From Bacilli bacterium (GTDB lineage: Bacteria > Bacillota_I > Bacilli_A > RF39 > UBA660), in assembly GCA_017398945.1 (NCBI GenBank), contig JAFQES010000012.1, positions 1 through 35,634 on the forward strand: a stretch of DNA of 35,634 nt, written 5' to 3'. The position numbers and the translations under genes are program-made. Positions 5,311-17,964 of this stretch are shown piece by piece. The notes beneath the pieces were generated by a model, which ran no database searches, was not told the DNA's origin, and saw only the letters and a program-made list of their open reading frames with translations. Each line of letters begins with the position of its first letter. Position 1 is the stretch's first letter.

Positions 5311-5925
5311 TTATTTAATACTTCTTTTTCTAATTATTTCTGTAACATATCCGGTACTACAGCACAATCTATTTGCTATTTGTCTACAATTTATAGTTCT
5401 ATTTTGTTGCTCTAGAAAATTACAATAATTATTTATTCGAGTATTAATCTTCTCTGTTTTTTTCATACTTTCTAAAAAATATTTTTCTTTATCAGGATCA
5501 TTATAAAAAATAAATAATTCATCGTATATGTTTTTCTCTTCTGGAAGAAGCTCATTAAGCATATTATTACAAAAACACATTAATACATTTAAAGCTTTTT
5601 CTATATTATCTATGTTAATATCATAAGCTCTCATAACAAAATCTATGATACTTCCACCACAACCGCATCCATAGCAAACCCATATTTTATCTGATTCTGC
5701 AATAGTTAAAGAAAGATCTTGCGTATTATGAAGACCACAAGTTACATAAAATCTTTGATTAGGTCTAACATTAACTTGATATTCTTTCTTATTTGATTCT
5801 AAGTAAGATAAATATAATTTTAAAAGACTTATCTTATTATTAATTATTCTAAATTGTTTTATATGTTCACTATCGCGATCCCAATATTCCATACCATCAT
5901 ATTTTGCTTCTATTAAATATCCCAT
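5311..5925 (-). CDS. Orphan CHC2-type zinc-finger protein with C-terminal HTH
   Basis: The middle carries a clear copy of the zinc ribbon of DnaG primases: a Cys-x2-His pair (CGLHN), a spacer of about 20 residues, then CYGCGCGGSIIDFVM, the signature Cys-x2-Cys plus GG and a hydrophobic helix. The zinc pattern therefore appears intact. No TOPRIM or primase RNA-polymerase domain follows. The last 50 residues instead look like an HTH (QIANRLCCSTGYVTEIIRKR), so DNA binding is likely. The start follows GGAGTGGGTT. Neighbours are a Ppx/GppA protein upstream and the NTF2-like pair downstream. It could be a plasmid- or phage-derived regulator; function not known. Confidence 0.65.
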   Translation of the reverse strand: MGYLIEAKYDGMEYWDRDSEHIKQFRIINNKISLLKLYLSYLESNKKEYQVNVRPNQRFYVTCGLHNTQDLSLTIAESDKIWVCYGCGCGGSIIDFVMRAYDINIDNIEKALNVLMCFCNNMLNELLPEEKNIYDELFIFYNDPDKEKYFLESMKKTEKINTRINNYCNFLEQQNRTINCRQIANRLCCSTGYVTEIIRKRSIK

Positions 5926-5948: not shown

Positions 5949-6845
5949 TTATTCTTTATTAATAATATTATTTATTATTCCGTCTTCCATATTAATTTTT
6001 GTTGGAATAATATATTTGGCATCTATTTTATGTGATATTAAATTTGTAATAACCTTCATTGCTCTAGATCCATCAAACCATAATGGATTATCACTATTTT
6101 GTCTTATTTTATCTAATGAAGTTACTAGAGCATCTTGATCATAAGAATCACTTAAATCTCTGGTAATCATATATTGCTGTTTTTTATCATCATATAAAGT
6201 ATTTTTGTTTAGTTTATATCCTGCATTATTATACCAGTATAAATGATCACCACCTGCTAATATCAAAAGATCAGCTTTTAGATCAATATTGTTAACTAAA
6301 TCATCCAGATAAGAATACACTTCATCAAATGTACAAGTAGCATAATCATCTTTTAAACCGCTAAATTTATTAGTTACATCAACTACTCCAAAATCATAAT
6401 ATTTTTTATCTATTATTTTTTTATCGTTAACAAAAATTAATTCTGTGGATCCTCCTCCACCGATAAAAATACATATATTGCCATTATAATCCATATTATT
6501 AAAACATCCCTCAGCAGTGTATAAAGCTTCATCCTCTTGAGAGACCACTTCAATTTTTAAATTAAATTTGTTAATAAGATTTTGATTAATATTATCTAAT
6601 TCTTCTTGAGCAATATTCCTAAATATACTACATCCATATATATAAATATTTTTAGTATACTCTAAAGCCTTAAGAATAACATTTTCGAAAAGTTCCATAT
6701 CTTTTTCGTAAATTTTATGATTAATCTTATAATTTTTTTTAAATTCAATTGTCGTTGTATTATCATATATTAATTTTCTATTTTCATAAATATGAGTTTT
6801 TGTATTATTACTTCCTATTTCAATTATGGCAAATATATTTTTCAT
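5949..6845 (-). CDS. Ppx/GppA family phosphatase (exopolyphosphatase-like)
   Basis: This family has the actin/ASKHA fold and removes phosphate from polyphosphate or pppGpp. The first phosphate loop is IGSNNTK near the N-terminus, preceded by Glu where most members have Asp. The sequence QEDEALYTAEGCF is the usual acidic/Ala-x-x-G helix, and the second phosphate loop is FIGGGGSTELIF, a very good match. AGGDHLYW is the adenosine-motif region. At 298 residues it is the short type without the C-terminal HD domain. The start has an AAGGAG site. It sits between a HAD-like protein and the CHC2-HTH protein on the same strand. The exact substrate cannot be told from the sequence. Confidence 0.85.
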   Translation of the reverse strand: MKNIFAIIEIGSNNTKTHIYENRKLIYDNTTTIEFKKNYKINHKIYEKDMELFENVILKALEYTKNIYIYGCSIFRNIAQEELDNINQNLINKFNLKIEVVSQEDEALYTAEGCFNNMDYNGNICIFIGGGGSTELIFVNDKKIIDKKYYDFGVVDVTNKFSGLKDDYATCTFDEVYSYLDDLVNNIDLKADLLILAGGDHLYWYNNAGYKLNKNTLYDDKKQQYMITRDLSDSYDQDALVTSLDKIRQNSDNPLWFDGSRAMKVITNLISHKIDAKYIIPTKINMEDGIINNIINKE

Positions 6846-9442: not shown

Positions 9443-10342
9443 TTAATAACATTTATATTTTTTCAGACTATTTTGAAATGCCACTTTACTAGCCGTTTCA
9501 TCCAAAACATAAAACATTTCGTCATCTATATTTTGACTATCAACCATTGCTAAATCGATTGTTTTTGTAAAGTTAAAACCATTTTCTACATTAGAAAAAT
9601 ATTGCGATACACCTGTGTAAGATCCTGATTCTGCCATGTTTTGGTACTTTTTGTAATCATTTAAATATGAACTTTCGTTTTCATAGTCTGAATTTAAAGA
9701 ATTTACTTCTAGAGTCACCTTTTTTAATTTATTTTCATTAAATTCGTAATTGTAAGCAATCCTGTTCTTAGAACAAGTTAACTTTTGTATACCATTTTCA
9801 GCTCTTAATTCTAATTTAGGAAGCTCATCATTAGAAATTATACTAATTGATATTTTATATATTTCTTCTTGATTTACTATATCATATGTAAATGTTCTTT
9901 TCCCATACTTGTTTAATGATTCGTTTGACAAATCAATTCTTTCTAAAATTTTTTCCTCTTTATCATATAACTCAATGTAATAATATTTTAACGGAGTAAC
10001 AGATTCTTTAGTATTATTAGCCAGAACAGAAAGTTTATTATTGCTAATATTTATTTTAGAAAATTCAATATTTTTAATTGTTATTACAGTTTCACTATTA
10101 ATTATAAATATTTTCCCTTCGTCATCATAAACTTCACCACTTGGATTTCCATCATTAGGTATTTTTGTTCCTCTAAAATATTCAGTAAGAGTTGGCAAGT
10201 AGTATAAAGTTGCAAAAAGTATTGCAAATATAATTATTAACAAAAATGGGCCTTTTTGTTTAGAATCTAAATATCCAATAGTTGTTGGAGTTAATTCTTG
10301 ATTACTAATTTGTATATTTTTTAACATTTTTTTCTTTGCCAT
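9443..10342 (-). CDS. Single-pass membrane protein of unknown function
   Basis: I do not recognise this protein. A basic, Lys-rich N-terminus is followed by one strong transmembrane helix (about residues 33-55, GPFLLIIIFAILFATLYYL). An extracytoplasmic part of about 245 residues is rich in predicted beta strand and Asn/Ser/Lys. Two cysteines (LTCSK and the penultimate KCY) could pair outside the cell. The preferred ATG at 10342 has AAGGG eight bases upstream; an ATG two codons earlier sits too close to it. It lies between spoVAE and scpA, 10 bp before the latter, so it may be co-transcribed with scpAB. Confidence 0.7.
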   Translation of the reverse strand: MAKKKMLKNIQISNQELTPTTIGYLDSKQKGPFLLIIIFAILFATLYYLPTLTEYFRGTKIPNDGNPSGEVYDDEGKIFIINSETVITIKNIEFSKINISNNKLSVLANNTKESVTPLKYYYIELYDKEEKILERIDLSNESLNKYGKRTFTYDIVNQEEIYKISISIISNDELPKLELRAENGIQKLTCSKNRIAYNYEFNENKLKKVTLEVNSLNSDYENESSYLNDYKKYQNMAESGSYTGVSQYFSNVENGFNFTKTIDLAMVDSQNIDDEMFYVLDETASKVAFQNSLKKYKCY

Positions 10343-10390
10343 TTTCATATCCCTTCTTACTTATAGTAATTATAGCAAAAAAAGAGCAAA

Positions 10391-10412
10391 ATAAAAAGAG
10401 CTTTTAGCTCTT
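10391..10412 (-). terminator. Terminator of the spoVA operon
   Basis: AAGAGC/GCTCTT with loop TAAAA, followed by TTTATTTT on the minus strand. The spoVAE stop codon is in the loop. Confidence 0.65.
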
Positions 10413-10754
10413 AGGTTTAAAGATAATAGCAAGTATAGCAGAAAATACTACTGCTGAAACGATAGCAACAGAACTTGAGCATAATAATGTTTGAAACATT
10501 CCTAAAATTCCATTTTCTTTTAAGCCAATTAATCCTGATGAGTATAGTAGATGGCCAAAATTAGAAATAATAACGGTTGCTCCCGCTCCAGCCCAAGCAA
10601 TTAATTTATCATAAATTCCTAAAAATGATAGGATTGCTCCAAGTACTGTAAATATACTAGTTAAATGTCCTGGGGTAAATTTTGAATTGTCTAAAATAAT
10701 TTGAGCAATCATACACATTACTCCAGCAAAAATAAACGCTCTTACAAATTCCAT
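10404..10754 (-). CDS. spoVAE: Stage V sporulation protein AE (SpoVAE)
   Basis: A small membrane protein of the SpoVA channel, which moves dipicolinic acid into the forespore and releases it at germination. It has 116 residues with four hydrophobic segments. The family signature is visible: an ILDNSKFTPGHLTSIFTVLG stretch after the first helix, then GAGATVIISNFGHLLYSSGLIG. An excellent GGAGGTG site precedes the ATG, and the start overlaps the spoVAD stop by one base (TAATG). It is the last gene of a spoVAC-AD-AE trio followed by a terminator. spoVAA, spoVAB, spoVAEa and spoVAF are absent from the adjacent sequence. Confidence 0.93.
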   Translation of the reverse strand: MEFVRAFIFAGVMCMIAQIILDNSKFTPGHLTSIFTVLGAILSFLGIYDKLIAWAGAGATVIISNFGHLLYSSGLIGLKENGILGMFQTLLCSSSVAIVSAVVFSAILAIIFKPKS

Positions 10755-11731
10755 TATAGCACCTCCAGTGAAACAGCATGGGCAATTGCCGGAATTGTAT
10801 CTTTTTGATTTAGAAGATTTGGAGAATGCAATGCTCCTGTTCCGACTATTAAGATTTTTTTGAATTTAGTATTTTTTAATACTTTATTAAATAAAACTAA
10901 TGGTAAACTAACTGGGCCGCTTGCTCCAGCATTAACATCTTGACTTTTGGCAAAGATTTGTTCACCAGCATCAACATGTTTTTTTAATTTTATATTATAA
11001 TTAACTTCTAAATATTCAAGTAGTATTTTACTACCTACTGTTCCTAAATCTCCTGTTAAAATCAAGTCATAATAGTTGACATCTCTTTTTAAATCAGCTA
11101 AATGCCTTTTAATAGTATCAGCAGCTGCCGGAGCCATGGCAGCACCTAAATGGTTGGCATCTTTGCAATCTAAATCAACTGTAATTCCAATAGTTGCAGA
11201 CTCTATTTTGATATTATTTGCAACACCGGTTACTAATGCTCCAACGCTTCCAGTAGCGGTAAAAGTTGAAGTTTTTTTCTTAGGAGCTCCATATTCAACT
11301 GGAAATCGAAATTGTTTTTCGGCTACTAAATTATGACTGCTAGTTAAGGCAATAATTTTTTTCATTTTTTTACTATCTATAAAATTGGCAGAAATAATAA
11401 GTGCTTCAACAAAAGAGGCACATGCACTATAAATTCCTAAATTTGGTATTTTAAACTTTCTAGCTGTATAACTAGAAGCAGCAATTTGGTTAGTTAAGTC
11501 ACCACCAATTAGACAATCTATTTCCATAGTTGTACATTTATTTTTATAAAGTAAATTTTCAATAACAGTTTTTTGCATTTTTATTTCAGCTAATTCAAAA
11601 GTTTTTTCTCCAAAATAATAATCATCTAAAGTTTTATCAAATTTTCTTATTTGTCCTACTTTTTCCAGAGGACCAGCTACAGAATAAAAATCATTTATAT
11701 AAACATTATTAAATTTTAAACTAGGCACCAA
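10754..11731 (-). CDS. spoVAD: Stage V sporulation protein AD (SpoVAD)
   Basis: A soluble thiolase/KAS-III-fold protein that binds dipicolinic acid and works with the SpoVAC and SpoVAE membrane subunits. The sequence follows the family from VAGPLEKVGQI through DCLIGGDLTNQ, GIYSACASFVEALI (the old thiolase cysteine is present), ALTSSHN, FTATGSVGALVTG and GDLGTVGSKIL. At 325 residues it is slightly shorter than the Bacillus protein. The start is TTG at 11731 or the adjacent GTG, with GAGGT upstream. It overlaps spoVAC by 11 bases and spoVAE by one, so the three are translationally coupled. Confidence 0.95.
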   Translation of the reverse strand: MVPSLKFNNVYINDFYSVAGPLEKVGQIRKFDKTLDDYYFGEKTFELAEIKMQKTVIENLLYKNKCTTMEIDCLIGGDLTNQIAASSYTARKFKIPNLGIYSACASFVEALIISANFIDSKKMKKIIALTSSHNLVAEKQFRFPVEYGAPKKKTSTFTATGSVGALVTGVANNIKIESATIGITVDLDCKDANHLGAAMAPAAADTIKRHLADLKRDVNYYDLILTGDLGTVGSKILLEYLEVNYNIKLKKHVDAGEQIFAKSQDVNAGASGPVSLPLVLFNKVLKNTKFKKILIVGTGALHSPNLLNQKDTIPAIAHAVSLEVL

Positions 11732-12158
11732 TAATCAACCTCACAATCAACAAGAAAAAGGCACTTAATATCCCATATAAGAGTACACTTCCAGCAAGTT
11801 TAAAAAAGTTAGCCCCTAAACCCGTAATTAAACCATCTTTTTTATAATCAAGAGCACTACTAGCAATAGAATGAGCAAAACCTGTTGTTGGTAAAAATAA
11901 TCCAGCTTTGGCACAACTCACCCAGTTATCAAAGAAATTTAAAGCGGTAAAAAGTGAACCCAACAACACTAAAATAAGCGCTAACCAAGCATATGATTCT
12001 ACTCTTCCTAACCCAAAACAATTCATTAATACAACTACTATTATTTCACCAATAAGACCAATTGAACCTCCAACTAGGAAACTAACTACAGCATTTTTAA
12101 ATTTATTTTCTTTAGGCGATATTTTATCAACCATTTTTTTATACTCTTTTTTATCCAT
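11721..12158 (-). CDS. spoVAC: Stage V sporulation protein AC (SpoVAC)
   Basis: The mechanosensitive-channel-like membrane subunit of the SpoVA dipicolinic acid transporter. Its N-terminus (MDKKEYKKMVDKISPKENK) matches the usual soluble lead-in. It is followed by about four membrane helices, with the conserved loop FDNWVSCAKAGLFLPTTGFAHSI between them. GGAGG is present before the ATG. It is the first gene of the spoVAC-AD-AE operon. A sequence resembling a forespore sigma-G promoter lies upstream and overlaps the terminator of the preceding gene. Confidence 0.95.
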   Translation of the reverse strand: MDKKEYKKMVDKISPKENKFKNAVVSFLVGGSIGLIGEIIVVVLMNCFGLGRVESYAWLALILVLLGSLFTALNFFDNWVSCAKAGLFLPTTGFAHSIASSALDYKKDGLITGLGANFFKLAGSVLLYGILSAFFLLIVRLIIGA

Positions 12159-12226: not shown

Positions 12227-12823
12227 TTAAAAATCTCCATATAGTTTTCCGTTTATATCAATAAATATTGGACCGCGAGCACCACTAAAGCCATCACCAA
12301 ACAATCCAGGAATTATACTAACTATATTAGTGTAGCCAATATTTTTTTCTACAGCAATCTGATTATCACCTATTACCCCATATTCTGTATCTGCACTCCC
12401 AACGGTACCATTTTCATTTATAAAATAAATCATGTTGCCTATATCTTGTCCTACATTTATAACACTAAAACATAGAACCTTGTCAGCTATTTTATATTTG
12501 CCATATTTGTTATTAAGTTCATCATTAAAATATTGTACATATAGACTTCCCTTTTCATCTAAATAAACTTCATATCCTTCTTCAATTATATCATTTGATA
12601 TAAATTGATAATTTTGATTATTAGAATCATATTTTTTTAATTCGTTTTTTAAATTTTCAGTATATAATTCGTAACTATTTGATATTATCGAATTATTTTC
12701 TGGTGTATTTTGGTTTGAATTATTTGTTATTGTTTTATCATAAATAATATATCCACTTAACCCGATGACCACTAATAATAATACAACCACTAATACTAAT
12801 AAACCAGTATTTTTATTTTGCAT
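12227..12823 (-). CDS. Membrane-anchored exported protein of unknown function
   Basis: I do not recognise this protein. The chosen ATG follows AAGGGAAGTGGAG; the frame extends 18 codons further upstream, but those residues look untranslated. The N-terminus MQNKNTG is followed by one hydrophobic helix (about residues 7-30) and an Asn-rich linker (NNSNQNTPENN). An extracytoplasmic domain of about 150 residues comes next and ends with a Gly-rich stretch (PGLFGDGFSGARGPIFID). There are no cysteines suggestive of a lipobox. It lies between the sigma factor and spoVAC, where Bacillus subtilis has spoVAA and spoVAB, but it resembles neither. Confidence 0.7.
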   Translation of the reverse strand: MQNKNTGLLVLVVVLLLVVIGLSGYIIYDKTITNNSNQNTPENNSIISNSYELYTENLKNELKKYDSNNQNYQFISNDIIEEGYEVYLDEKGSLYVQYFNDELNNKYGKYKIADKVLCFSVINVGQDIGNMIYFINENGTVGSADTEYGVIGDNQIAVEKNIGYTNIVSIIPGLFGDGFSGARGPIFIDINGKLYGDF

Positions 12824-12888
12824 TACTCCACTTCCCTTTCTCGTTTTAATAATATCATAATGTAATTGGATATTCAACTAAAAAGGAA

Positions 12889-13536
12889 TTATACGGTCAT
12901 ATAATTTCTCATTTTTTCAACAGCTTTTTTTTCATAACGGGATACCATTACTTGCGTCATATTATATTTTTTAGCTACTTCGCTTTGAGTCATGTCTTTT
13001 AAATATCTTGCTCTAATTATCTTTTGTTCTCTATCGTCTAGACTATTTATACTATCATATAAATCTATTTTTTCATCTGGTAAAACGCTTTGTTCTTCCG
13101 CAATTGTTTCATAGTAACTTCTTTGATTATCGTTATCATCATCTAACGAAATGATTTCTTGAGCCGCTAAAACTGCCATATCAATTTCCGTTACATCCTT
13201 TTCTAAATACATTGCCAGTTCTACATTATTAGGTATTTTACCCAATCTTTGGGCTAACTTACTACGAGCCAGTTCAATACTTTTATATAATGATAAAATA
13301 TCACGACTTACTTTTAAAGATCTTGCTGAATTAACCTGCTTATACATTGTTCCAAAAATATACTTAAAAGCAAAGGTACTAAATTTAGTATTAGCATTTT
13401 GTTTATAATTGTCATAAGCATTATAAAGTCCAATAAAACCAGCTTGGATTAAGTCTTCTTTTTCTACATTATAAAAATGATTTGCTATTTTATATACTAA
13501 GTATTTATACTGCTCAGATAATTGTTCTTTTGTCAA
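12889..13536 (-). CDS. sigF: Sporulation-type sigma-70 factor (SigF/SigG group)
   Basis: An RNA polymerase sigma factor. Region 2 is clear: DLIQAGFIGLYNAYDNY, then KFSTFAFKYIFGTM, the -10 recognition and melting helices. Region 3 is present (ARSKLAQRLGKIPNNVELAMYL), and region 4 carries an HTH (MTQSEVAKKYNMTQVMVSRYEKKAVEKMR) for the -35 element. The size and three-region layout match SigF/SigG/SigB. The TTG at 13536 has AGGTGAT four bases upstream; an in-frame GTG at 13545, immediately after the spoIIAA stop, is the alternative. The upstream gene is SpoIIAA-like, but no SpoIIAB gene lies between them. Whether it is SigF or SigG cannot be settled by reading alone. Confidence 0.85.
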   Translation of the reverse strand: MTKEQLSEQYKYLVYKIANHFYNVEKEDLIQAGFIGLYNAYDNYKQNANTKFSTFAFKYIFGTMYKQVNSARSLKVSRDILSLYKSIELARSKLAQRLGKIPNNVELAMYLEKDVTEIDMAVLAAQEIISLDDDNDNQRSYYETIAEEQSVLPDEKIDLYDSINSLDDREQKIIRARYLKDMTQSEVAKKYNMTQVMVSRYEKKAVEKMRNYMTV

Positions 13537-13545
13537 TTTAATCAC

Positions 13546-13878
13546 CTAAACTCTAATTAAGTCAAATACCTTTCTTTCATTACTAACAAATTTAATTTTT
13601 AATCTTTTTAACATTTGCTCTAAAGACTCTGAAACTTCGCACAAACAAATCTTTCCTTTATTAGCTTTAATTGCACATTTTGTATTTAACATGGCATCTA
13701 CTCCAGCTTCATCTATATCTGATAGTTCATATAAGTTATAAACTAAGTATCTTATTTTATGTTTTAGTAAAACAGGCACTAAATAATTATTTAATTTATA
13801 ACTACTTTTTCTATTTAGTTTTCCTTTTAATCTTACAAATAAAATTCCTTTATTATATTCTAAATCCATATTCAACAT
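13546..13878 (-). CDS. spoIIAA: STAS-domain protein, SpoIIAA-like anti-anti-sigma factor
   Basis: A single STAS domain of 110 residues that aligns with Bacillus SpoIIAA without gaps over IRYLVYNLYELSDIDEAG. In the family this protein frees sigma-F by binding SpoIIAB and is switched off by SpoIIAB phosphorylating the serine after Asp in DSSG. Here that motif reads Asp56-Glu57-Ala58-Gly59, so the acceptor serine is Glu and the next serine is Ala. The strong site AAGGTGATTAT precedes the ATG. It abuts the sigma-factor gene directly. With no SpoIIAB present and no acceptor, the classical switch cannot work as described; it may act as a constitutive partner or have a new ligand. Confidence 0.8.
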   Translation of the reverse strand: MLNMDLEYNKGILFVRLKGKLNRKSSYKLNNYLVPVLLKHKIRYLVYNLYELSDIDEAGVDAMLNTKCAIKANKGKICLCEVSESLEQMLKRLKIKFVSNERKVFDLIRV

Positions 13879-13971: not shown

Positions 13972-15384
13972 TTAATTTTCTAAATAACTATTTATTTTTA
14001 ATTTTACATCTGCAATACTTTGTTCATCAGGAATCATAACATACAGTTGTTTTGATGGATAGCTATAAGTAAATTCTTTGGAATCTGTTCCTGTTAAACT
14101 AACAGTTTCAAATTGCCAACTAGGATTTTTATCTAACTGATACTTAATAATTTTAGAAATATTTTTATCATTAAAATCAGTCATAAAATTACCATCTAAA
14201 CTATTTAAAATACTACTATATTTTGTAAGAATTGCTGGGGTTAATGCTTTATTTACCAATGCCTGAATAACTAATTGTTGATTTTCACCTCTAATACGGT
14301 CCCCTCCAATTGAATCAAAAGCATGACGTTCTCTAACAAAAGACAAGGTTTGTTTGCCATTTAACTTATTGATTCCTTTTTTAAAACTTGTTCCATCCAT
14401 ACTTGTAAATGCATAATTAGAATTAACTTCTATGCCTCCAAGAGTATCAACAACTTTTTCTACAGAAGTAAAGTTAACTTTTAAATAATAATTTATATCG
14501 ATATCCAACAAATTTTCAATTGTTTTAATTGATGAATCTATTCCATAAATGCCAGCATGAGTAAGTTTGTCTTTAGCATTTTTGCCATCTAAACTAACAT
14601 AATAATCTCTTGGAATATTAGTAATTAAAGCTGTTCCTTTTTCAATATTTATAGTAACCAACATGTTTACATCACTTCTTGATACTCCTGTGATACTACC
14701 ATATTGATCATTCCCAGTTATATAAACAGTAAAAGGTTTATTCAAGATATCCACATTGTCTTGTTCTACTTTCACCTTTATTTTACTTTCAAAAACATCA
14801 AGAGTTTTAGTTAAAGTTAGGAATTCTCCTCTTTCTTCTCCTAAAATATTATACTGTGACTCTTCTAACAATATAGCACTAACCTCTTTGTTAAATAATC
14901 CATCAGCTAGCTTTTCGATGTCATTATATTTTTGTTTTTCAAAGTTAATTTCTTTATCTACTTTTTTAAAAGCTTCAGATAAACCTTTGAAACCTGCATC
15001 AACGTAACCTATATATTTATCTTCTAAGTCTTTTATATTTTCGAATGAAGAATTTTTTAAAACTACTAATTGATATTTTTCAGTTTTATAATCATAATGT
15101 TTAAATCCGCTTAGAAAGCCAATTGTACTTAGTAAGTAATAACTTATAATTGTTTGGATGATAAGCATAATTATAAAAAAGATGATTGGAGCTTTTCGTT
15201 TCTTTGTCTTTCTTAATATTAAACATAACATTCCATCTATCAAAATAAATGGCGCTAATATTACTATTAAAAATTTAGATGGCAATAAGTTTGCATAAAT
15301 TATTAAGCCAAACATTATTAGTGTCGATATAAGAAGGATAATACTTAAAACTTTTCCTCCTTTAAATATTTTATTTTTTTTCAT
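13972..15384 (-). CDS. LytR-CpsA-Psr (LCP) family glycopolymer transferase
   Basis: LCP enzymes attach wall teichoic acids or capsule polymers from lipid carriers to peptidoglycan, outside the membrane. The N-terminus has about four hydrophobic helices (residues 10-110), more than the single helix of simple LCP proteins. Next is a domain of about 120 residues opening NIKDLEDKYIGYVDAGF, which looks like part of a periplasmic-binding-protein fold. The LCP domain follows: SRSDVNMLVTIN, TNIPRDYYV, a catalytic-pocket region with KLTHAGIYG, and SFVRERHAFDSIGGDRIRGENQQLVIQA. The ATG at 15384 is preferred; a GTG five codons upstream exists. A terminator follows. The gene lies upstream of spoIIAA. Confidence 0.9.
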   Translation of the reverse strand: MKKNKIFKGGKVLSIILLISTLIMFGLIIYANLLPSKFLIVILAPFILIDGMLCLILRKTKKRKAPIIFFIIMLIIQTIISYYLLSTIGFLSGFKHYDYKTEKYQLVVLKNSSFENIKDLEDKYIGYVDAGFKGLSEAFKKVDKEINFEKQKYNDIEKLADGLFNKEVSAILLEESQYNILGEERGEFLTLTKTLDVFESKIKVKVEQDNVDILNKPFTVYITGNDQYGSITGVSRSDVNMLVTINIEKGTALITNIPRDYYVSLDGKNAKDKLTHAGIYGIDSSIKTIENLLDIDINYYLKVNFTSVEKVVDTLGGIEVNSNYAFTSMDGTSFKKGINKLNGKQTLSFVRERHAFDSIGGDRIRGENQQLVIQALVNKALTPAILTKYSSILNSLDGNFMTDFNDKNISKIIKYQLDKNPSWQFETVSLTGTDSKEFTYSYPSKQLYVMIPDEQSIADVKLKINSYLEN

Positions 15385-15457
15385 ATAACCACTTTCCACT
15401 TATATTATACCACCGTAAATAACGCAAGGAAAGTTTTGTTCAAATTTAGTGTAAACT

Positions 15458-15489
15458 AAAAAGATTGGTTATTTTTTATCTAACCAATC
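15458..15489 (-). terminator. Terminator of the symporter gene
   Basis: GATTGGTTA/TAACCAATC (9 bp) with a 9-nt loop, then TTTTT on the minus strand. The stop codon of the symporter is inside the stem. Confidence 0.8.
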
Positions 15490-16695
15490 CTTTCCTTCAA
15501 CATTTTTAGCTATCAACATAGATGCGGTAACATCTCCTACTACATTCATCGTTGTAGCTGGAGCATCGGCAATAAGTCCAATTGCATGGATTATTGGGAA
15601 AGCAGTAGCAGCAGGTAGTCCATATAATGAGACTATCAAAAGATCTCCGACTATATTTCCATCTGGTACCCCAGCTGTAACACAACTAGAGATAATTGCT
15701 ACTAGAATTGCTAGCAATAAAGTTGTAATCCCCGTAAAGTCGCGTCCAAATACCGCAAACAAGAAAGCAATTTTTATTATTACTAACAAAGCACTACCTT
15801 CCATATGCATTGTTGCTCCTGTTGACAAAGTTAATTCACTTATATCATCTGGAACCCCGATTTTCTTGGCTGCATCTATATTAGTTGGTAAAGTAGCTAA
15901 AGAACTTTGGGTTCCTAGCGATGTAACAACACTATTAATAATATTTTTATAAAATAATTTAATTCCCTTTTTTCCACCAGCTATATAAGCATATAAAGTA
16001 TAGAAAACAAAGAAGAATAATATACATACTACTAAGTAAATTATAAAACTTTTTAAATAGCCAGTTAAAAGTTGAGGCCCTAAATCAGCAATTAAACAAG
16101 CAAAGCAAGCACTCATTCCAATTGGAGCATAATACATAATGTATTTTACTAATTTTAGCATTACTTTTGATCCTTGTTCTAAGAAATCTTTAAATACTGT
16201 TGATTTTTCTTTTAAGTTTCCAGTGGCTAATCCTACAAACACAGAGATTATAATTAAAGCAAACATATTTGATCTTGATAATAATGCTGAAAAATCGTTT
16301 ACTGTTAACATCGAAGCTATTTGTTCACCTATATTTACTTTAGTAACTGCTTCGGTAGCATCTAAAGCTATTTCTTTAGCTCCCATAGGACTTATAAATG
16401 ACATAACTATAGTCATAACAATTCCAGCAATAGCAACAGTAATTAGAAATGTTAAAAAAATATGTTTTAATAATTTTCCTAATCTCTTAACATTTTTGAT
16501 GTTAGCAATTGAACTAGAAATAGTAAAGAATACTAACGGAACAACAATTGTAAAACATAAATTAACAAATATTGTCCCTAAAGGTTTTATAACTAAGATA
16601 TCTTCTTTAAAAATCAACCCTAGTATTACCCCTAATATTATTGAAGATAGTAAAATGAAGGAAGTTTTATAGTTTTCCCAAAACTTTTTAAACAA
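15469..16695 (-). CDS. DAACS-family sodium:amino acid/dicarboxylate symporter
   Basis: An elevator-type secondary transporter of the GltPh family. It has eight or so hydrophobic segments. Hairpin 1 is recognisable as SLGTQSSLATLP, TM7 as TGATMHMEGSALL (NMDGT in relatives), hairpin 2 as CVTAGVPDGNIVG, and TM8 as DAPATTMNVVGD. Aligned on the final VGD, the arginine that binds the side-chain carboxylate of glutamate/aspartate (Arg397 of GltPh) is Ala here, while the TM8 Asp394 and Asn401 equivalents remain. This points to a neutral or otherwise different substrate. The start is TTG with AAGGAG upstream. Monocistronic, with its own terminator. Confidence 0.88.
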   Translation of the reverse strand: MFKKFWENYKTSFILLSSIILGVILGLIFKEDILVIKPLGTIFVNLCFTIVVPLVFFTISSSIANIKNVKRLGKLLKHIFLTFLITVAIAGIVMTIVMSFISPMGAKEIALDATEAVTKVNIGEQIASMLTVNDFSALLSRSNMFALIIISVFVGLATGNLKEKSTVFKDFLEQGSKVMLKLVKYIMYYAPIGMSACFACLIADLGPQLLTGYLKSFIIYLVVCILFFFVFYTLYAYIAGGKKGIKLFYKNIINSVVTSLGTQSSLATLPTNIDAAKKIGVPDDISELTLSTGATMHMEGSALLVIIKIAFLFAVFGRDFTGITTLLLAILVAIISSCVTAGVPDGNIVGDLLIVSLYGLPAATAFPIIHAIGLIADAPATTMNVVGDVTASMLIAKNVEGKDWLDKK

Positions 16696-16809: not shown

Positions 16810-17964
16810 TTATAAACCGCTGGTTATTAATTTTAAATTCTTTTTAAAATAATCGAATATATTGGCTTTTTGAACATTTTCTAAAACGATAATATCCACT
16901 TCTTTAATAACTTCGTTAGAACTATTTTTTATTTGAGCTTTTCCTACAACATCACCTTTTTTTAATGGTGCTTTTACTTCATTAATTTTTAAAGTGTATT
17001 GATATTTTTCATTAGGATTTACACTGGTCTTATTAAGTAAGTGAGTGGCATCCTCTTTTAAATAAACTTCTATTTGTTGTTTTTTACCGTTGATAACTTT
17101 TACTTTTCCTAAAGATTTATCAGCTTTTAGAATTGTTTGTAACTCAAAACTATTAAATCCATAGTTTAGTAATTTTACAGTGTCACCACTTCTTAAATCG
17201 CTTGATTCTACACCCATAACTACTGTGATAAGGCGCATGTTACCTTTTTTAGCTGTAGCAGTTAAACAATATTTGGCTGTTGAAGTAAATCCAGTTTTTA
17301 AGCCATCTACTCCATCATAAAACCGAACTAATTTATTAGTATTAACAAGCCATGTTGTAGAGCCATCTGGTTTTGGCATGTAATATTCATAAATACTAGT
17401 GAATTCTAATATTTTTTCATGTTTAACTAACTCTTTTGCCATTACAGACATATCTTTTGCTGTTGTATAATGGTTTTCTGAATCTAATCCATGAGGATTA
17501 TCAAAATGCGTATTTAATAATCCTAGTTTTTGAGCTTTTTCATTCATCATTTCAACAAACTTCTCAACACTACCAGCAACTTTTTCGGCTAAAGCAACAA
17601 CGGCATCATTTCCAGATGCAATGGCTATGCCTTTTAATAATTCTTCTACAGGATATTTTTCTCCTGCTTGTAAAAATACTTGACTGCCACCCATACTTGC
17701 AGCTGTAGGACTTATTTCTACTTCATCAGTAAGTTTTAATCTTCCTTCATCTATCGCTTCCATAATTAGAAGCATACTCATTACTTTAGTCATGGATGCT
17801 GGTGGTAGTTTTTCGTCCGGATTTTTTTCGTATAAGACTTTTCCGGTACTTGTTTCAATTAAGATTGCGCTTTTAGAGTTTGGCGCTAAATCTTCTTCCG
17901 CTTTTACCGGTATTATATTTATTACAAAAAGCACTATCATAAAAAAAAGCATTTTCTTTAACAT
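16810..17964 (-). CDS. D-alanyl-D-alanine carboxypeptidase (DacF/PBP5 type)
   Basis: A class C penicillin-binding protein that trims the terminal D-Ala from peptidoglycan stem peptides outside the cell. It has a signal peptide with likely cleavage after VKA at residue 22. The active site is complete: Ser57-Met-Thr-Lys60, Ser117-Gly-Asn119 and Lys223-Thr-Gly225. A C-terminal beta domain (PBP5_C) follows, and the final FDYFKKNLKLITSGL is an amphipathic membrane anchor. AGAGGTG precedes the ATG. In Bacillus subtilis dacF lies immediately upstream of spoIIAA; here it is in the same order but separated by the symporter and LCP genes, which supports a DacF identity. Confidence 0.93.
   Translation of the reverse strand: MLKKMLFFMIVLFVINIIPVKAEEDLAPNSKSAILIETSTGKVLYEKNPDEKLPPASMTKVMSMLLIMEAIDEGRLKLTDEVEISPTAASMGGSQVFLQAGEKYPVEELLKGIAIASGNDAVVALAEKVAGSVEKFVEMMNEKAQKLGLLNTHFDNPHGLDSENHYTTAKDMSVMAKELVKHEKILEFTSIYEYYMPKPDGSTTWLVNTNKLVRFYDGVDGLKTGFTSTAKYCLTATAKKGNMRLITVVMGVESSDLRSGDTVKLLNYGFNSFELQTILKADKSLGKVKVINGKKQQIEVYLKEDATHLLNKTSVNPNEKYQYTLKINEVKAPLKKGDVVGKAQIKNSSNEVIKEVDIIVLENVQKANIFDYFKKNLKLITSGL

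Follow-up and report, generated by a model that had tools for sequence, protein, structure and literature searches.

Loss of the SpoIIAB-SpoIIE partner switch and divergence of a SpoIIAA-like STAS protein in a large family of gut bacteria with small genomes

Background

How is sigma-F controlled where its partner-switching kinase and phosphatase are missing? The question is raised by a spoIIA-like locus in a 35,634-nucleotide stretch of DNA (the window), in which a gene for a STAS-domain protein is followed immediately by a sigma factor gene. A published list of genes common to all spore-forming bacilli and clostridia includes SpoIIAB and SpoIIE (PMC3533761). Published predictions of spore formation disagree for the order RF39: it was predicted to form spores in a study that found spoIIAB and spoIIE reduced or absent, with spoIIGA and others kept (PMC10868615), whereas a recent predictor assigns a 0% chance to its RF39 MAGs, and all the MAGs that it classes as spore-formers carry spoIIAB (PMC12536801). 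The bare absence of spoIIAB and spoIIE in RF39 is therefore already published and is not new here. Our results resemble that reduced sporulation set, but the published analysis scored gene presence by KO, and its main text does not deal with spoIIAA, sigF, the phosphorylation site or a changed face of the STAS protein (PMC10868615). We found no description of the remodelled STAS protein in the literature.

The sigma-F locus in the window

The genome to which the window belongs amounts to 1.21 Mb in 35 contigs and is 95% complete. The genes of the locus are transcribed from the minus strand in the following order:

16810..17964, minus strand: D-Ala-D-Ala carboxypeptidase (DacF-like), by family match
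15469-16695, minus strand: dicarboxylate symporter, between the DacF-like and STAS genes
13972-15399, minus strand: LCP protein, also between the DacF-like and STAS genes
13546..13878, minus strand: SpoIIAA-derived STAS protein, 110 aa, with DEAG for DSSG (by Pfam, structure-relative alignment and orthologues)
13702..13713, minus strand: codons of its degenerate phospho-loop, Asp56-Glu57-Ala58-Gly59 in window numbering, equivalent to D57-S58-S59-G60 of SpoIIAA
12889..13545, minus strand: divergent orthologue of sigma-F (spoIIAC), 215-218 aa, with GTG 13545 or TTG 13536 as start (AGGTGA favours TTG)
12227..12877, minus strand: single-pass membrane protein between sigF and spoVAC, with only a weak family match (SpoIIIAH, E=0.013)
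11721..12158, minus strand: SpoVAC, by family match
10754..11731, minus strand: SpoVAD, by family match
10404..10754, minus strand: SpoVAEb, by family match

In Bacillus the order is dacF, spoIIAA, spoIIAB, sigF and then the spoVA genes, dacF being the customary upstream neighbour of spoIIAA; the slot of the membrane protein at 12227-12877 is presumably that of spoVAA/spoVAB. As in the spoIIA loci of Bacillus and Clostridia, the STAS gene and sigF are followed by spoVAC-AD-AEb and preceded, at some distance, by a dacF-like gene. Because the arrangement matches that of Bacillus apart from spoIIAB and the insertions, the window locus looks like the ancestral spoIIA/spoVA locus minus spoIIAB, plus a few inserted genes. 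Between spoVAEb and scpA lies a candidate lineage-specific sporulation gene (9443-10348, minus strand; 301-aa membrane protein, no family match), and downstream of scpA-scpB are two further genes, one whose 204-aa product has a DnaG-type zinc finger (5311-5925, minus strand) and one whose 298-aa product partially matches Ppx/GppA phosphatase (5949-6845, minus strand).

The STAS and sigma reading frames abut in the same frame, the stop codon TAG of the former (13548-13546) being followed directly by the listed GTG start of the latter. A Shine-Dalgarno-like AGGTGA overlaps this TAG at a spacing that suits TTG 13536 better than GTG 13545, so that sigma probably starts at the TTG and the true gap is about 9 nt. 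Whichever start codon is used, a kinase gene would not fit between the two, as an earlier note made from the letters of the window had remarked.

The STAS protein matches Pfam STAS at E=3e-13. Its best curated matches are ant_ant_sig and SpoIIAA, both under cut-off (42.7 bits on the SpoIIAA equivalog TIGR02886, against a cut-off of 114.75 bits), and its closest solved relatives are the SpoIIAA structures 1th8, 1tid and 1auz. Alignment to these sets DSSG over DEAG, as the same note had read it, and places S58 over Glu, so that the phosphorylatable serine is missing. The sigma protein, in which regions 2, 3 and 4 are present, scores 123 bits on the sigma-F equivalog TIGR02885 (cut-off 321 bits); its closest solved relative is chain C of 1l0o, the sigma-F of the SpoIIAB complex, and sigE, sigG and sigK are each encoded by a separate gene in the same genome. 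Judged by these matches and by a STAS gene in the spoIIA-operon place upstream of sigF and the spoVA genes, the two proteins are divergent orthologues of SpoIIAA and sigma-F. A chance resemblance to SpoIIAA is contradicted by the relatives, since 129 of 130 STAS genes of the family sit directly upstream of the orthologous sigma gene. The nearest named record, a Bacilli MAG from goat rectum (RGIG3081), has a sigma protein that is 97% identical. Single-sequence structure predictions for the STAS protein alone and for a STAS-TAG-sigma read-through fusion both gave a pLDDT of about 40, too low to be informative.

Absence of the kinase and phosphatase

The earlier note suspected that the partner switch had been lost or rewired, and a search of the whole genome bears this out. 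Neither HATPase_c_2 nor the SpoIIE domain has a match at E<=10, and RsbW and RsbU are without a match. None of the eight HATPase_c hits is a GHKL reading frame of SpoIIAB size: all lie in frames of at least 438 aa, compared to about 146 aa for SpoIIAB, and the two that were inspected are sensor kinases. The partners of SpoIIAA are thus not encoded, while the same genome carries spoIIGA-sigE, sigG, sigK, SpoIIR and spoVA genes.

The same holds for the 193 genomes of its order that we compared, all from one family (83 genera) and made up of incomplete MAGs, in which no stand-alone SpoIIAB is recognisable. The order is probably RF39, judging by gene content, genome size and host. Their listed HATPase_c_2 matches fall in long frames except for a few partial ones in frames of 146 to 259 aa, and we read the 146-aa frame, which lies beside a response regulator gene, as a probable kinase fragment. 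Of 247 class genomes, 48 carry a full SpoIIAB that scores above the cut-off of TIGR01925, and none of the 48 belongs to this family; that the profile detects SpoIIAB elsewhere in the class supports true absence here. A SpoIIE-domain match above cut-off occurs in four family genomes, two of them with PP2C-HATPase fusions (625-632 aa) and two with frames of 266 and 497 aa; none of these frames has the length of SpoIIE, and SpoIIE itself was found in none of the 193. These searches revealed no SpoIIAB encoded elsewhere, and we conclude that the loss of the partner switch of SpoIIAA, SpoIIAB and SpoIIE is family-wide and not local. SpoIIR is present in 180 of the 193 genomes, the sigma alignment matches 188 at E<=1e-30 (some of these being sigma-G only), and a STAS orthologue is found in 148, leaving 45 STAS-negative.

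The PP2C-HATPase fusions (L047, L048, L077 and L078, in genomes G135 and G193) resemble RsbU and RsbW in one chain, and the fusion of G193 has as its direct neighbour a separate STAS protein whose motif reads SSAG. The window locus shares a STAS-domain antagonist with the RsbV-RsbW-RsbU (sigma-B type) module but differs from it in that its genome lacks RsbW and RsbU, the fusion occurring in only two genomes of the family.

Divergence of the STAS protein

We compared the 130 family STAS genes with 26 SpoIIAB-bearing loci of the class. The distance between the STAS gene and sigF is -22 to +66 nt in 129 of the 130, compared to 406-563 nt in the 26 relatives. In the SpoIIAB-bearing loci, twelve STAS columns show conservation of at least 90%; of these, five are kept in the family (L3, G20, D57, G60, G76) and seven are lost (retention E21 10%, D23 15%, F55 4%, S58 11%, S59 19%, G62 2%, R67 2%); mean identity is 35% in the family and 45% in the comparison set, which may inflate the losses and works against gains. 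Other columns are conserved only in the family: E8 (89%), G12 (91%), F15 (91%) and R17 (95%), also I13 and I56. These gained-column figures, like the tree change counts, sigma-F site comparison and subclade and background residue counts given below, include a duplicate (L001/L044) or paralogue (L048/L077) and shift by at most 3. G20, N49, G76 and R17 are near-invariant in the family.

S58 and R67 belong to both the SpoIIAB and the SpoIIE interfaces (PMC11418112), Glu21 is the point of clash with sigma-F on SpoIIAB, and Asp23 of RsbV contacts an arginine of the kinase (PMC7340262). The alignment thus shows that the contact residues for SpoIIAB and SpoIIE, the acceptor Ser58 among them, are no longer constrained while those of the fold stay. 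This is the pattern that would be expected if one binding face had been given up and another acquired, and it does not name the partner; the gained residues could instead reflect a structural shift. Compared to the spoIIA switch, the two proteins of the window remain closest to SpoIIAA and the 1l0o sigma-F but score far under the family cut-offs.

Retention of the STAS gene and control of sigma-F

The STAS protein is under purifying selection similar in strength to that on sigma-F, with dN/dS of 0.055 and 0.114 respectively in the pair from the window's own genus and medians of 0.22 and 0.25 over 26 pairs, in many of which dS is near saturation. Its presence follows sporulation capacity as marked by SpoIIR, being found in 145 of 180 SpoIIR-positive genomes compared to 3 of 13 SpoIIR-negative ones (Fisher p=3e-5).

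Because the kinase and phosphatase of the switch are gone and the old docking face of the STAS protein is worn away, early spore gene expression in this family must be controlled by other means; the stripped-down control of spore-gene transcription suggested by the earlier note is a fair inference. We propose that spoIIAB and spoIIE were lost before the family diversified, as the gene content of the sampled genomes indicates, so that sigma-F would neither be bound by an anti-sigma kinase nor depend on partner switching for its release. The SpoIIAA descendant would have stayed in the operon and ceased to be a phospho-switch, Glu58 being one of many replacements, and sigma-F would most likely be confined by the time and place of its making (promoter control, translation, proteolysis) and not by a SpoIIAB-type anti-sigma factor, feeding a downstream cascade whose usual genes (SpoIIR, SpoIIGA, sigma-E, sigma-G, sigma-K) are present. 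Given the retained STAS fold, the purifying selection and the new conserved residues of the first beta hairpin, the protein would most likely be kept as a non-switching adaptor for another sporulation partner. We consider this account, with the switch gone, sigma-F confined by its production and the STAS protein retained as an adaptor, to be a reasonably probable one.

The family thus keeps SpoIIR and the sigma cascade, with SpoIIGA and SpoVA also in the window's genome, and lacks the switch linking septation with sigma-F. Either partner switching is dispensable for forespore-specific sigma-F activity, or these genes have a role other than sporulation. A bolder version, which we regard as possible but doubtful, is that the family sporulates with sigma-F under no anti-sigma kinase and that the SpoIIAA descendant now binds a new partner through its first beta hairpin instead of the phospho-loop; if true, this would be a novel way to set up forespore-specific transcription.

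Among the alternatives, sigma-F may be restrained by an unrecognised replacement for SpoIIAB, either a non-GHKL anti-sigma factor or a very divergent kinase, with the STAS protein as its antagonist or not. The mother cell must somehow silence sigma-F, and Bacillus has a SpoIIAB-independent inhibitor of it, Fin (PMC3174212). We nevertheless think such a replacement unlikely: the window's genome has no small GHKL reading frame, the STAS phosphorylation site is not conserved, and Fin as a substitute is rejected, as no match to it exceeds the cut-off in the 193 genomes of the family and none was found in the window's own.

The earlier note also raised the idea that the STAS protein may bind sigma directly, and it could in principle be an anti-sigma factor or chaperone that acts on sigma-F without SpoIIAB. 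The adjacency of the two genes in 129 of 130 loci and their matched selection would fit, but the genes owe that adjacency to the old operon. At 19 examined loci (L233, L234 and L236-L252) sigma-F has no upstream STAS gene, even with HMMER filters off; these are natural deletions in genomes that mostly keep SpoIIR, and on the sigma-F tree the present/absent state of the STAS gene switches at least 12 times. Since it has been lost in many lineages that bear sigma-F, STAS function is dispensable in them. Moreover, none of the sigma-F positions that are conserved where STAS is present becomes more variable where it is absent, and those gained by sigma-F in the family are conserved to nearly the same degree, or to a higher one, in STAS-less genomes, so that we see no sign on sigma-F of a surface for binding STAS. 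Repeated loss and the lack of STAS-dependent constraint speak against an obligate contact between the two proteins, and we give little credence to direct regulation.

The same losses could instead mark a relic that has been decaying slowly since its partners disappeared and is kept partly through coupled translation of sigF. The dissolved switch face is consistent with this, as are internal stops in a few family copies (G117 and second copies in G059 and G182). However, the low dN/dS, the near-invariance of G20, N49, G76 and R17 and the new conserved columns E8, G12 and F15 across many genera all argue for continued use, and simple decay seems to us a rather poor prospect. Our preferred reading, an adaptor for another sporulation partner, accommodates both the selection and the new residues.

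Variation at position 58

S58 is invariant in the 26 SpoIIAB-bearing loci. In the 130 family proteins the position holds E (34), N (17), S (14), M (12), I (9), L (9) and others (including K), making it the sixth most variable of 86 columns, with at least 65 residue changes and about 13 between E and non-E on a FastTree tree of sigma-F. Glu is nevertheless enriched over background (26% compared to 6-8%); it is found in both genomes of the window's genus and in 23 of 37 members of its subclade, the others including 2 D, 6 N and 3 S. DSSG survives in 3 of the 130, including that of G034, which is 62% identical to the window protein.

Glu58 is thus a recurrent clade-level state, neither fixed nor a change in one genome. 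Its fixation in relatives, a point left open by the earlier note, is borne out only as a majority within the subclade, and although relatives with Ser exist, which that note took as the sign of a local change, the loss of the switch is family-wide. Its suggestion that Glu mimics the phosphorylated state fares worse. A STAS protein locked like phosphorylated SpoIIAA, with a target of its own, might account for E or D in 25 of the 37, for Glu as the commonest residue and for its repeated changes, but it is very improbable given N, M, I, L, K or S in other members, the loss also of S59, R67, D23 and E21, and the absence both of a protein to read the phospho-state and of the partner to be kept away. 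The high variability of the position rules out phospho-mimicry as a general explanation, Glu being rather a frequent local solution.

In a second large subclade (e.g. L011, L012, L014, L015, L025, L088-L094, L142 and L153) the two serines give way to a hydrophobic residue and Lys; the resulting D-(M/I/L)-K-G is conserved within that subclade, where the loop may have taken on another role.
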